From Flavivirga aquatica (GTDB lineage Bacteria > Bacteroidota > Bacteroidia > Flavobacteriales > Flavobacteriaceae): a stretch of DNA of 64,000 nucleotides. The stretch is from the NCBI RefSeq assembly GCF_001747085.1, contig NZ_MDJD01000007.1, positions 558,001-622,000 on the forward strand, written 5' to 3'. Shown here in pieces: positions 6,040 to 10,479 of this stretch; positions within the stretch are counted from its first letter, which is position 1, and the number at the start of each line of letters is the position of its first letter. The notes under the pieces were generated by a model. That model was given only the letters and a program-made list of their open reading frames with translations, made no database searches and had not been told where the DNA came from. Made by a program: the position numbers and the translations under genes.

Positions 6040-7319
6040 ATGAATAAAATAATCCCCATTCTGTTATTAACAGCTATAACTATTAGCTGTTCTACCAAAA
6101 ACAAAACTGATAATGAACTATTAGAAAAAGACAAAAAAGAACTAGTAGAAAATTTAGATTCCTATAAGGTATCCTCTTATAAATTTGGTAAAATTCTAAT
6201 TAGAGCATCTGCTGAAAAAGACACAATCTCATCTGAATTTGCATCTTTTAAATCCGATCTTGATAGAATTTTCAATAAAGCAGTAAAATACAATACAGAA
6301 AGCCTATCGGTATTAGACTATATTTCAATATATCGTGATTATAAAAGAATGGAAGATTTTATAATGAAAACCGATGAAGATATTTTCCCAACACTAGTTG
6401 ATGCTTTTAATGTGGCCTATGGAGATTCCATTAATAAGAGAAAAGAATATTTTACTGAAAAAAGAAAGAATATGTCCAAAATATTGAACATTCTGTTTTA
6501 AGTGCTATTGTTATTTTAAGTAAAGATTTAGGGAAAGAAGTATCTCTTTATGAATGTAGTAAAACAAAACCTGAATTACTTCCCGATTCGGAAATTAAAA
6601 CCTTACTACAGTACTTTAGAGGCTTCTTATTTTTTGAAAAAGGTCTATATTATTTATCTGAAGATGAAATTTCAAAAAATATCGACTGGCTAAACAAAAA
6701 TAAAGATATTGATTTACCATATACTCGGTTTATGTTTCGATGGAACAATCTAAACAACCAACAAACCCATTTAGGGTTTCACTCTTTAAATCATTTATTT
6801 AGAGGCTTCGACAGATTAATGATGGAAAGAGATATTGATGAAAAACGTGCCTTAGAAGATTTTGAAATATTTCTAAAAGATGCTAAAGAAATAGGATTAG
6901 ACAATGAAATTATTTGGTCGATTGAAACCTATCTGTATTTGAAAAACGAAGAAAATGAAAAAGCTGTTGCTTCTTTATCTAAATTAAAAACCAGCAAGTT
7001 ACTTTCTTCTAATGAAAAAGAGAAAATAGATGAATCTATTGAATATCTAAAAAACAGAAAATCTGGAAAAGTATTAAACGGCATTTACGATAAATATTTT
7101 TTAAGTAAAATCGCTACAAAATATATGTTTTCAATTCTATCTCAAGTAGACTGGAAAAAAGTACTAAAAGAACAAAATGTTCCTCATACAGAAGACATGT
7201 TTAAAACTATTGAAGTTCTTAAAGAATTTATTGAGAATTTGAATAAATATTCCAGTACAGACAATTTGAAGAAAACTGGAGAAAGCCTCTGGAATAAAGC
7301 AAAGGAATTAGTAGAGTAA
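6040..7319 (+). pseudogene. Frameshifted lipoprotein gene
   Basis: The first part (6040-6501) encodes a signal peptide with lipobox (MNKIIPILLLTAITISC) and a helical domain. It then stops at 6501 with ILNILF. The reading continues in the -1 frame without stops from 6459 to 7319 (…YVQNIEHSVLSAIVILSKDL… through FRWNNLNNQQTHLGFHSLNHLF to the C-terminus). The two frames overlap only at 6459-6501, around a run of six As at 6458-6463. Adding one A there gives a continuous helical protein of about 427 residues. This is either a true frameshift or a homopolymer error. The family is unknown. The C-terminal part alone has no good start upstream of the ATG at 6732. Confidence 0.75.
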
Positions 7320-7364
7320 TAATATATAAATTAAACGCTAGCTCTGCTTTATTTATAGGAGTAT

Positions 7365-7403
7365 AATGGCATTCTTACTTATTAATCGTAATAGAATGCC
7401 ATT
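7365..7403 (+). terminator. Hairpin after the frameshifted lipoprotein gene
   Basis: AATGGCATTCT (7365-7375) pairs with AGAATGCCATT (7393-7403), with a partly paired TAC/GTA inner segment. It lies 46 bases after the stop at 7319. The rest of the spacer up to 7639 is AT-rich and shows no gene. Confidence 0.6.
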
Positions 7404-7639
7404 CCATTATATGTTTATAAAACACCTTTTAAACTCGTTCACTTTTAATGAAGACTTGATATTTAAATATGCCATTTCATGTCTAATTTTTTTCTTAATC
7501 CATTTACAATAAGGCCAAATCGCAGGAACCAACGACTAGTTACTTATTCTTAGTTTTTGCATATTTAAAAGGTAAGATTTTACTTCTTATTTATTTTCTT
7601 TTTATTAAATTAGTTTATTTACACACAACCTAAACTAAA

Positions 7640-8638
7640 ATGAGTGAAAAAATAATAGTCTCTAGTATTAAAAAGATAACCTTATCTCTACTAGAAGTAT
7701 CCTTTAACCAAACTGAGGTTGAAAAAAAACTTAATGAAATTCATGCTCATTTTCAAGAACTCACTAAAATTACTGGATTCGATCATAAAATTGAGTATCT
7801 AGCTGCTGTTCCTTCGGCAAAAGGAAAAGCTTTAGGTTTAAATCATGCTGCGCAGTGCTTATTGGATTATAAAAGAACTGTAAAATTTTTAAAAGCCATT
7901 ATTTCTGCTATTCATGAAAAACAAAAAAATTACCCCAATGAAGTAATTCATATATTTTATGCTGGATGCGGTCCCTATGCCCCATTTATAACTTTAATAG
8001 CGCCTCTTTTCACTCCAAAAAATGTGCAGTTTACATTATTAGAAATAAATAAAGCTTCACTTGAATCTGCAAAAAAATTAATTCAAGCACTAGATTTAAT
8101 CAATTACATTCAAGACTATCATTTAGCAGATGCTGTCACCTTTAAAGTTCCTAATGCGAATAAATTTCACCTTCTTTTTAGTGAAACATTAGACGCTTTA
8201 TTATATCGAGAATGCTACGTTCCTATACTATATAATCTGCTTCCTCAATTTAATGAAGACATTACATTAATTCCAGAAAATGTACTATTAAACCTAACGT
8301 TGTTAACTCATTCTATAACAACTCCTGATTATAAAGAACATGATATAGGTCATATTTTAAATGTACGTGAAGCAGTGGCATTACACACTATTAATCAGCC
8401 TATTCCAACACATTTACAAAGTAAAACAATTGACTTAACAACACTAAATATGAACCGTTACAACCTTATGTTATTAGACACTCAGGTTCATGTGTATAAC
8501 GATATTTGGTTGTATAGAGATGAATCATCTTTAACACTACCTTTAGAAATGGTATTACAACAACCTTTTAATAATGATACTATTACTTTTTCTTATCAAA
8601 TGGAACCAGATATAGAGCTAACTTGCAAATTTGACTAA
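7640..8638 (+). CDS. SAM-dependent methyltransferase-like protein, possibly PRMT-like
   Basis: A 332-residue soluble protein. An N-terminal helical domain (residues 1-100) precedes a Rossmann-type glycine loop, FYAGCGPYAPF at about 106-116. An acidic residue ends the next strand (LLEINK, Glu135), as in class I methyltransferases. A SE-containing segment (FSETLDALLYRE, 180-191) and LIPENVLLNLTLL (210-222) recall the double-E loop and following beta domain of protein arginine methyltransferases. The C-terminal 110 residues look beta-rich. An AlkB-type dioxygenase gene follows 30 bases downstream in the same direction. The methyltransferase fold is likely; the substrate and the PRMT comparison are inference. 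Confidence 0.6.
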   Translation: MSEKIIVSSIKKITLSLLEVSFNQTEVEKKLNEIHAHFQELTKITGFDHKIEYLAAVPSAKGKALGLNHAAQCLLDYKRTVKFLKAIISAIHEKQKNYPNEVIHIFYAGCGPYAPFITLIAPLFTPKNVQFTLLEINKASLESAKKLIQALDLINYIQDYHLADAVTFKVPNANKFHLLFSETLDALLYRECYVPILYNLLPQFNEDITLIPENVLLNLTLLTHSITTPDYKEHDIGHILNVREAVALHTINQPIPTHLQSKTIDLTTLNMNRYNLMLLDTQVHVYNDIWLYRDESSLTLPLEMVLQQPFNNDTITFSYQMEPDIELTCKFD

Positions 8639-8668
8639 TAAAACTGGTAAATAAAATTAAGTTGATAT

Positions 8669-9256
8669 ATGAAATTACCTTTAGATTGCTCTGTGGAATA
8701 TATAGCTGATTTTTTAACTAAAAATGAAGCTGAAGCGCTTTATAACATCTTAATTAATGAATATGAAATACACAAAAACCAACTTGTTGTTACCGTAGAG
8801 AATAAAAGAATAATAACCGATAGTTTTAAGATATTATTTACTACAGAAAGGTTAATCAAACTAAATAGTCATCCAGAAAACATTCACGGAAAATCATTTG
8901 CATGGTCAGGAGCTATGGCTAATTTAAAAACACTCGTAGAAAAATATACAGGTAAAACCTTTGAACTTGCTATGTGCTTATATTATCCTAATGGAAATTA
9001 TTTTGCACCTTATCATTTTGATCAAGAAACCTCTGGATATAAAACTATTTTACCATCGATTAGCCTTGGTGAAGTTCGTCAATTTAGTTTCAAAAAAAAT
9101 GATAGTCAAGAAAGCTTTTCATTGGATTTAGCTCATGGAAGCTTATTAGTTATGAAAGACTATTCTCAAGAACGGTACACGCATAGTCTACTAAAAAATC
9201 CTGCACATAAAAATGGCAGGATCAATATCACTTTTCGAGAACCAGACTTTAAATAA
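8669..9256 (+). CDS. AlkB-type 2-oxoglutarate/Fe(II) dioxygenase
   Basis: A 195-residue protein with the complete AlkB-fold signature. YYPNGNYFAPYHFDQET supplies the first iron ligands (His116 and Asp118), THS supplies His172, and RINITFRE supplies the 2-oxoglutarate and substrate arginines (Arg184, Arg190). AlkB-family enzymes oxidatively remove methyl groups from nucleic acids or proteins, or hydroxylate small molecules. Length is close to ALKBH2-type proteins, but the nucleotide-recognition lid is not obvious. The gene lies directly after a methyltransferase-like gene, 30 bases apart, so the two may act on one substrate. It converges with the CapA-type gene, with 11 bases between the stop codons. 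Confidence 0.85.
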   Translation: MKLPLDCSVEYIADFLTKNEAEALYNILINEYEIHKNQLVVTVENKRIITDSFKILFTTERLIKLNSHPENIHGKSFAWSGAMANLKTLVEKYTGKTFELAMCLYYPNGNYFAPYHFDQETSGYKTILPSISLGEVRQFSFKKNDSQESFSLDLAHGSLLVMKDYSQERYTHSLLKNPAHKNGRINITFREPDFK

Positions 9257-9267
9257 TGTGATGTTAA

Positions 9268-10479
9268 TTAATGGTATTCGTCAATATTAACATTATGTTC
9301 TCCCAATAAGGTTCTGGCGTGCTTAACAAAACGCATCATCTTATCGTAGTCCTTAGTTTGTTTAAAGTACGTTGTATCTTTAGAAAATTTATTGGCAGGT
9401 AATACATAATATTCCTTTTTACCTTTAACAACAGGCTCATGAACCCAGGTTAAAAAATAATCGGCATCTTTAATTTTCACCTTTTTTGTTTCATTATCCT
9501 TTTCTAATAGAAGTTTAAACACAGCACCTCCATCTCTTGGAAATGTTCTTTGATGTGATACAAAATTACCCAAAGAATAAACCACCAAACTTTCGGTTGG
9601 GTTGTTATCGTCGGCTTTTTGCCACTCCATAGGTTGTAATACATGCGGATGCGCTCCAATAACGATATTAACACCTAAAGATTTAAAATAAGCGAACATT
9701 TCTTTTTGTGCCTTATTAGGTAAATCTTTATACTGGTAACCCCAATGTACAAAAGCTATAATTTCATCTGGTTTAGAAGTTGCATTAACGCTTTCTATAT
9801 CTGCTTTTATAGTTTCTTTATCTAGATAATTCACCACATTTGGAGGTGTTGGTTTTATCTCGTTAGTCCCATAAGTATAGTTTATAATGGCAATTTTAAA
9901 ATCATTCTTTTCAATGATATATGCTGGATTCTTTATTTTTTCTTCTGAATTAATAAAAGTTCCAGTATGACCTATTTGTAAAGAATCTAAAATTTCTATG
10001 GTACGCTCTACACCTTTTTTTCTTTTATCGCAAGAGTGATTATTCGCTGTTGTAAGCACATCTACGCCTGCTCTTTTTATAGCTGCTGCATAACTTGCTG
10101 GCGAGCTAAATTGTGGATAACCTGAATAAGGCTTTACTCCTAAGGTTACTTCTATATTTCCTAGAGTAACATCGGCATCACTTAATATCGGTTTTATTTT
10201 AGAAAAACAAGCATCATACTCGTATGTTTTTGTCTCTTTATTATAAGCTGCTTTAATTTGATCCATATGCCCCATAAAGTCTCCTATAAACAATAAGCTT
10301 AAGGTTTTTGGTTCTAAAACTTTCTCAGGTTCTGGAACAAATTTTGGAATAACAACAGGTATTTCCTCCTTTACAACTTGAGGTTCTACTGGTTTTTCTA
10401 CTTTACTTTCTTTAGGTGCTCCACAAGCAAGATAGGCTAATGCTATTATTACTAAAATTTTTACTGATCTTAACCTCAT
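9268..10479 (-). CDS. CapA-family (PGA_cap) lipoprotein
   Basis: A 403-residue member of the CapA/PgsA metallophosphatase-like family. MRLRSVKILVIIALAYLAC gives a signal peptide with lipobox Cys19, followed by a Lys/Glu/Pro/Val-rich linker to about residue 55. Family motifs follow in order: LLFIGDFMGH, LGNIEVTLG, TTANNHSCDKRKKGVERTIEILD, FVHWGYQY and VIGAHPHVLQPMEW. The Asp, Asn and His residues form the expected metal-binding set. Relatives include poly-gamma-glutamate capsule proteins, but no other capsule gene is near, so a general envelope role is safer. Confidence 0.88.
   Translation of the reverse strand: MRLRSVKILVIIALAYLACGAPKESKVEKPVEPQVVKEEIPVVIPKFVPEPEKVLEPKTLSLLFIGDFMGHMDQIKAAYNKETKTYEYDACFSKIKPILSDADVTLGNIEVTLGVKPYSGYPQFSSPASYAAAIKRAGVDVLTTANNHSCDKRKKGVERTIEILDSLQIGHTGTFINSEEKIKNPAYIIEKNDFKIAIINYTYGTNEIKPTPPNVVNYLDKETIKADIESVNATSKPDEIIAFVHWGYQYKDLPNKAQKEMFAYFKSLGVNIVIGAHPHVLQPMEWQKADDNNPTESLVVYSLGNFVSHQRTFPRDGGAVFKLLLEKDNETKKVKIKDADYFLTWVHEPVVKGKKEYYVLPANKFSKDTTYFKQTKDYDKMMRFVKHARTLLGEHNVNIDEYH

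Follow-up and report, generated by a model that had tools for sequence, protein, structure and literature searches.

As a local pair, the genes for a PRMT-like methyltransferase and an AlkB-type oxygenase are not conserved among orthologues; the two enzyme types are linked nevertheless. The pair is located in the window (the whole stretch of 64,000 nucleotides analysed, G000:C7:558001-622000), which belongs to a 4.64-Mb genome.

The two genes, read in the initial annotation as a methyltransferase followed 30 bases later by an AlkB dioxygenase, were borne out by the open reading frames (Table 1). The pair stands alone, since no Pfam match above the cut-off was obtained for its 5' neighbour (6732-7319) and its 3' neighbour (9268-10479) encodes a PGA_cap protein on the opposite strand. 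The 195-aa product of the 5' neighbour showed a weak match to CdiI_ImmP (E 0.016, under the cut-off), probably by chance. The terminator scan of the 7300-9400 region gave 0 sites, which says little as the mean for shuffled sequences was only 0.6.

Table 1. Features of the methyltransferase-AlkB gene pair (positions in the window)
Feature	Position	Strand	Remarks
PRMT-like class I methyltransferase gene	7640..8638	+	332 aa; founder of a family with 52 copies collected
DYKRTVKF, residues 76-83	7865..7888	+	aligns with PRMT7 just 5' of the SAM motif
YAGCGP, residues 107-112, SAM motif I equivalent	7958..7975	+	31-row alignment
ETLDALLYRE, residues 182-191, E-x8-E double-glutamate loop	8183..8212	+	aligned with the PRMT1 loop SEWMGYCLFYE
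Intergenic gap, 30 bases	8639..8668	+	between the methyltransferase and AlkB genes
AlkB-type 2-oxoglutarate oxygenase gene	8669..9256	+	195 aa; branch distinct from the ordinary flavobacterial AlkB
LYY, residues 104-106, NxY position	8978..8986	+	I or L first in 8/8 of the branch
HFD, residues 116-118, iron-binding HxD	9014..9022	+	alignment
H172, distal iron-binding histidine	9182..9184	+	alignment
RINITFR, residues 184-190, conserved arginines R184 and R190	9218..9238	+	alignment

The product of the first gene, METHYLTRANSFERASE (332 aa), remained as a single sequence under every Pfam, NCBIfam, PADLOC and PHROG threshold and matched none of the PDB sequences at E ≤ 1. The family that it represents is unnamed by any Pfam or NCBIfam model. 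A total of 52 copies was collected: 34 places in 27 genomes, from the 383 genomes of the taxonomic family, with 12 further genomes among 395 of the phylum, three named loci and three of four Pseudoalteromonas plasmid records also taken in. Named relatives came from Salegentibacter, Mesonia and Aequorivita, which suggests a flavobacterial host. The first 34 copies, with one truncated copy, L100 and L111 omitted, provided an alignment of 31 rows. The profile of these 31 relatives matched 11 PDB sequences at E ≤ 1, all of them arginine methyltransferases, with E-values of 0.0013 for PRMT7, from 0.028 for PRMT1, 0.25 for PRMT8 and 0.96 for a yeast enzyme. Only one match (0.0013) was below 0.01, so the similarity to PRMTs is marginal; a 19-sequence profile matched PRMT7 alone, at 0.04. 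In the search with PRMT family models, PF05185 (Pfam PRMT5) weakly matched two relatives out of 19 (E 9.4e-4 at best), the window protein not being among them, but no PRMT model in Pfam passed its cut-off for the window protein or the 10 relatives scanned, and none in NCBIfam did so for the window protein. In the Pfam scan of 10 relatives, class I methyltransferase models were matched by most, all under the cut-off, and 3 of the 10 were left without any match at E ≤ 0.1.

The PRMT-like features proposed in the initial annotation were supported by the PDB profile matches and by the double-glutamate loop, in which E182 and E191 were invariant in 31/31 rows. Y107, G109, G111 and P112 of the YAGxGP motif were invariant across the 31 rows, and so was P212, among other positions. 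The RT-containing helix preceding motif I was present, with R79 invariant and T80 and F83 kept in at least 90% of the rows. The N-terminal 100 residues had been described as unrecognised, which held for about residues 1-70 but not for about 74-97 (LLDYKRTVKF...), as these aligned with PRMT7. The family is like PRMT1, PRMT7, PRMT8 and yeast Hmt1 in the profile match over the SAM-binding half, in the double-glutamate spacing and in the upstream RT helix, and unlike them in being bacterial and in its marginal E-values. It also passes no family cut-off, and literal THW, expected in a loop of the C-terminal barrel, is absent from the window protein. The THW loop deviates in some PRMT types. These features point to a putative PRMT-like class I methyltransferase, a name preferred to PRMT in view of the absent literal THW and of the failure of every PRMT model to reach its cut-off. 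Methylation of proteins by PRMT-type enzymes is considered characteristic of eukaryotes. Structure models of the methyltransferase (four sequences, mean pLDDT 41.5) and of the AlkB alone (38.9) were unusable.

The product of the second gene exceeded the cut-off of PF13532 (E 2.4e-21, 77.3 bits against 31.2) and matched ALKBH3 and ALKBH2 in the PDB, but it reached only 14.9 bits against the cut-off of 267 for the NCBIfam AlkB equivalog. The enzyme had been credited with all catalytic residues. This applied to the iron ligands and to both arginines (H116, D118, H172, R184 and R190 were kept in 8/8 members of its branch and in 26/26 ordinary AlkBs) but not to the Asn of NxY, which we take to be a 2-oxoglutarate contact. 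The position was occupied by N in 26/26 ordinary AlkBs and by I or L throughout the branch (Leu104 in the window); the alignment points to a changed active site. The lid-region pattern RKxAW[YF]G was found in 0/8 of the branch and in only 16/26 ordinary AlkBs, that of the window's own genome not being one of the 16.

Phylogenetic analysis of 30 AlkBs placed the window protein with those of G110, G152 and G089 (support 100) and separated this group from the 26 ordinary AlkBs; the program warned that long branches meet. The profile of these four AlkBs detected the branch in 8/383 genomes at E ≤ 8.9e-80, with the next intact match at 1.7e-36; as G089 and G672 are of one genus, the eight genomes represent seven genera. 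The branch is like AlkB, ALKBH2 and ALKBH3 in passing the PF13532 cut-off and in its HxD...H and both arginines, and unlike them in the replaced NxY Asn, in the equivalog score and in its separate place in the tree. An ordinary AlkB, 32% identical to that of the pair, is also encoded in the window's genome, at C46. The branch has probably changed its substrate and left nucleic-acid repair.

Methyltransferases of 45% identity or more were defined as window-type, which gave 12 copies, i.e., the window's and 11 others. The initial annotation had made its proposal depend on the pair being kept by relatives; the neighbourhood search over 3 kb detected an AlkB gene beside 0/11 of these closest ones (the L031 flank being just 1.5-2 kb long), which speaks against it. 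Among the 52 copies, AlkB was located within 3 kb of three: the window's, L029 of G110 and L206 of G648. For AlkBs of the window subtype, on the other hand, a methyltransferase was present at most 1.4 kb away in 3/3 cases, one of them a decayed fragment. The AlkBs nearest to the window's were that of G110 (60% identity, 1.3 kb from the methyltransferase) and the G648 fragment (63% over 98 aa with one internal stop, 57 bases from the methyltransferase). The G110 and G648 methyltransferases were 57% identical to each other, the identity between those of G110 and the window was 24%, and the AlkB gene comes first in G110 and G648 and second in the window. Given two methyltransferase lineages and the swapped gene order, the association seems to have formed, or to have been re-formed, on two or more occasions. 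Because all three window-subtype AlkBs adjoin methyltransferases, in two lineages only 24% alike, a functional link between the AlkB type and the methyltransferase family is indicated. Of the writer-eraser or sequential pairing suggested earlier, this link survived, whereas the local pair in orthologues did not. The decayed G648 gene (L206:8033-8371, minus strand) lies upstream of the methyltransferase, and the genome keeps an intact branch AlkB elsewhere, on another contig.

The remaining branch AlkBs (35-42% identical to the window's) were not beside a methyltransferase. The methyltransferase was nevertheless detected in 5/8 AlkB-branch genomes versus 27/383 overall (P = 5.8e-5), or in 4/7 when the window's genome was left out (P = 5.2e-4). 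It was not found in the other three AlkB-branch genomes, e.g., G089, the same-genus G672 having one.

Other oxygenases were also observed near the methyltransferase. In G110, AlkB is followed in turn by an unassigned 344-aa gene, the methyltransferase and a PF05118 hydroxylase. Such a hydroxylase was located within 1.6 kb of 5/52 methyltransferase copies (L002, L029, L099, L111 and L196), a PF13640 oxygenase was nearby in L098 and a PhyH-like piece in L111, and most of the 52 copies had no oxygenase nearby. In the loci having one, the partner varies, yet it is always a 2-oxoglutarate oxygenase. The window's genome encodes an oxygenase of the PF05118 Asp/Asn beta-hydroxylase-like kind away from the pair (G000:C28:251371-251922, E 7.8e-11). 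Its close form, with a line of 57% identity or more drawn after the hits were known, was present in 8/199 genomes, among them 5/5 with the window-type methyltransferase, the window's own included (P = 2e-8), mostly unlinked to it. Matches at 29-43% were counted as other PF05118 proteins and came from some of the same genomes and from four others (G027, G089, G104 and G126).

Genes for tail-collar proteins (PF07484) were common, being found in 44 of 199 genomes (one per genus). They were present in all genomes of this set with the methyltransferase (13/13), the close-form hydroxylase (8/8) or the AlkB branch (4/4), and in 18/18 genomes of a chosen set. A collar gene was located within 3 kb of 27/52 methyltransferase copies (23/48 loci); as adjacent genes account for 7 of the 13 methyltransferase genomes, the 13/13 is not independent of this count. 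A collar gene was within this distance of none of the 12 window-type copies, which leaves co-occurrence as the collar link of this subtype (5/5 genomes, P = 4e-4). In the AlkB branch, collars adjoin the methyltransferase of G672 and G612, and the AlkB-collar link is weak (4/4, P = 2e-3 overall; 2/2, P = 0.09 at ≥3.3 Mb). Two collars are encoded in the window's genome (G000:C54:572660 and C7:138835). They are like the phage tail collar of the T4-type short tail fibre (E 6.7e-31 with PF07484 for a collar of the window's genome; the short tail fibre 1ocy was matched at 1.3e-3) and differ in being chromosomal, about 160-200 aa long and not beside the window pair.

Genome size was considered as the factor behind the collar link. 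Sizes were known for 181/199 genomes, and of the 134 with 3.0 Mb or more, 40 were collar-positive. Within these, collars were present in 13/13 genomes with the methyltransferase (P = 3e-8), 5/5 with the window type (P = 2e-3), 8/8 with the hydroxylase (P = 4e-5) and 4/4 with the AlkB branch (P = 7e-3). The explanation by size was rejected as these size-limited tests hold, save for the AlkB branch at ≥3.3 Mb. The C-terminal P-x-R of the collars was also considered, as a methylation site. It was kept in 52/54 collars from enzyme-genome loci and in 19/22 from 20 enzyme-free genomes (Fisher P = 0.022 with related sequences counted apart). The two exceptions in the first group end with Arg nonetheless and the three in the other do not. 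This candidate was dismissed, as the pattern is also kept in collars of enzyme-free genomes.

Several arrangements recurred around the collar genes. A cassette of collar genes, a gene like L025:8401-8958 and the methyltransferase was seen in L023, L025, L026, L027, L028, L030 and L199, and likewise in L200, L202, L205, L208, L210 and L211. The L025:8401-8958-like gene, which encodes a TAT signal and has a weak intradiol-dioxygenase-like match, was located within 3 kb of 16/40 copies that are not window-type. Formyltransferase-like genes, possibly for a further modifying enzyme, adjoin collars in L100, L137 and L160, and Peripla_BP_6-like proteins do so at L200:9750-10889 and L150:3066-4160. 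In L145, L146, L147, L149, L135, L138, L141 and L142, collars were accompanied by a small gene, a membrane protein, a histidine kinase and a response-regulator-like gene; the kinase assignment is backed by Pfam in L145 alone. Collars, several with an apparent signal peptide, were beside a gene read as putative translation initiation factor IF-2 in L134, L136, L143 and L148 and also in L152, L153 and L155. In a single locus, L022 (430-1433 and 12830-13087), four short alike ORFs with an MKKKS/MKKKN start and a GG motif look like natural-product precursor peptides; they are located within about 7 kb of a window-type methyltransferase.

Two other readings of the pair were dismissed. Phage origin was rejected because the methyltransferase had no match in 50,697 phage records and none of its 50 candidate stretches in viral contigs was confirmed, and AlkB matched just three phage records, at 28-31%, with none of nine viral-contig candidates confirmed. 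A defence system was rejected as no other defence gene was noticed adjacent; in PADLOC, AlkB matched CARF_2OG alone, by its oxygenase part (E 1.9e-9), and the methyltransferase matched nothing.

The occurrence of both enzyme types in collar-carrying genomes hints at an undescribed protein-modification toolkit. The best reading, tentative and somewhat short of an even chance, is that one substrate, possibly the collar proteins, is first methylated and then oxidised. The divergent bacterial PRMT-like methyltransferase would methylate a nitrogen, most likely of arginine, the PRMT-like core being the sole reason for naming this residue. The AlkB-fold oxygenase, presumably without nucleic-acid activity, would then hydroxylate the same or a neighbouring residue, and both enzymes would act in the cytoplasm, successively, on one protein or peptide. 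Hydroxylation rather than demethylation is suggested for the AlkB, as hydroxylase-type oxygenases take its place elsewhere. The Asp/Asn-hydroxylase-like oxygenase encoded at C28 may be part of the same toolkit. The likeliest substrates would be the two collar-domain proteins of the genome, proposed because no common small-molecule pathway is evident and collars are the recurrent partner. No description of the methyltransferase/oxygenase/collar system was present among the literature matches listed, which is weak evidence of absence.

An unlikely reading, which nevertheless survives best among the alternatives, is that the enzymes tailor free amino acids or small peptide metabolites, e.g., into an N-methylated hydroxylated derivative of arginine or proline, and that collars merely share the same lifestyle or export machinery. 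PRMT-like enzymes that act on free arginine exist, such as SznE of streptozotocin, and in the SznE type a PRMT-like enzyme is likewise followed by an oxygenase. The G110 hydroxylase matched L-proline cis-4-hydroxylase (PDB 4p7w, E 3.9e-5), the hydroxylase weakly matched the NCBIfam nonproteinogenic amino acid hydroxylase TIGR04531, and formyltransferase, acetyltransferase and Peripla_BP_6 ligand-binding genes were present in collar neighbourhoods. However, on a reading of the ORF lists rather than a family-by-family scan, genes for NRPS, PKS, amino-acid ligases or transporters were not seen to recur next to the methyltransferase, and the recurrent neighbours were collar proteins.

It is improbable that the two enzymes act as writer and eraser, with the methyltransferase methylating arginine and AlkB removing the methyl group so that the mark is reversible. 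AlkB enzymes are N-demethylases, and the adjacency in 3/3 window-subtype cases would suit such a pair, but there was no AlkB within 3 kb of 49/52 methyltransferase copies, and other relatives pair with the PF05118, PF13640 and PhyH-like proteins described above. With partners from hydroxylase families, tailoring fits better than erasing.

Equally improbable is that the neighbours are unrelated, with AlkB as an extra enzyme for alkylation repair and a methyltransferase that acts independently. The absence of the pair in 11/11 close methyltransferase relatives would agree with this, as would the match of the window AlkB to PHROG 21963 'alkylated DNA repair' (2.1e-13) and the presence of an ordinary-kind AlkB in 161/199 genomes at E ≤ 0.001. 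Against this stand the rarity of the AlkB branch, the ordinary AlkB already encoded at C46 and the lost NxY Asn, and two of the three window-subtype AlkBs turned up beside a methyltransferase without being sought there. The least probable arrangement is reversible arginine methylation with a PRMT-like writer, an AlkB-fold demethylase and the hydroxylase as a third enzyme, tuning exported collar-like surface proteins.

Successive methylation and oxidation of one substrate, if true, would provide a testable case of multi-step bacterial protein modification, in which a methyltransferase family is tied to interchangeable oxygenases and to collars. It would also assign a role to the AlkB branch, whose default annotation is currently DNA repair.
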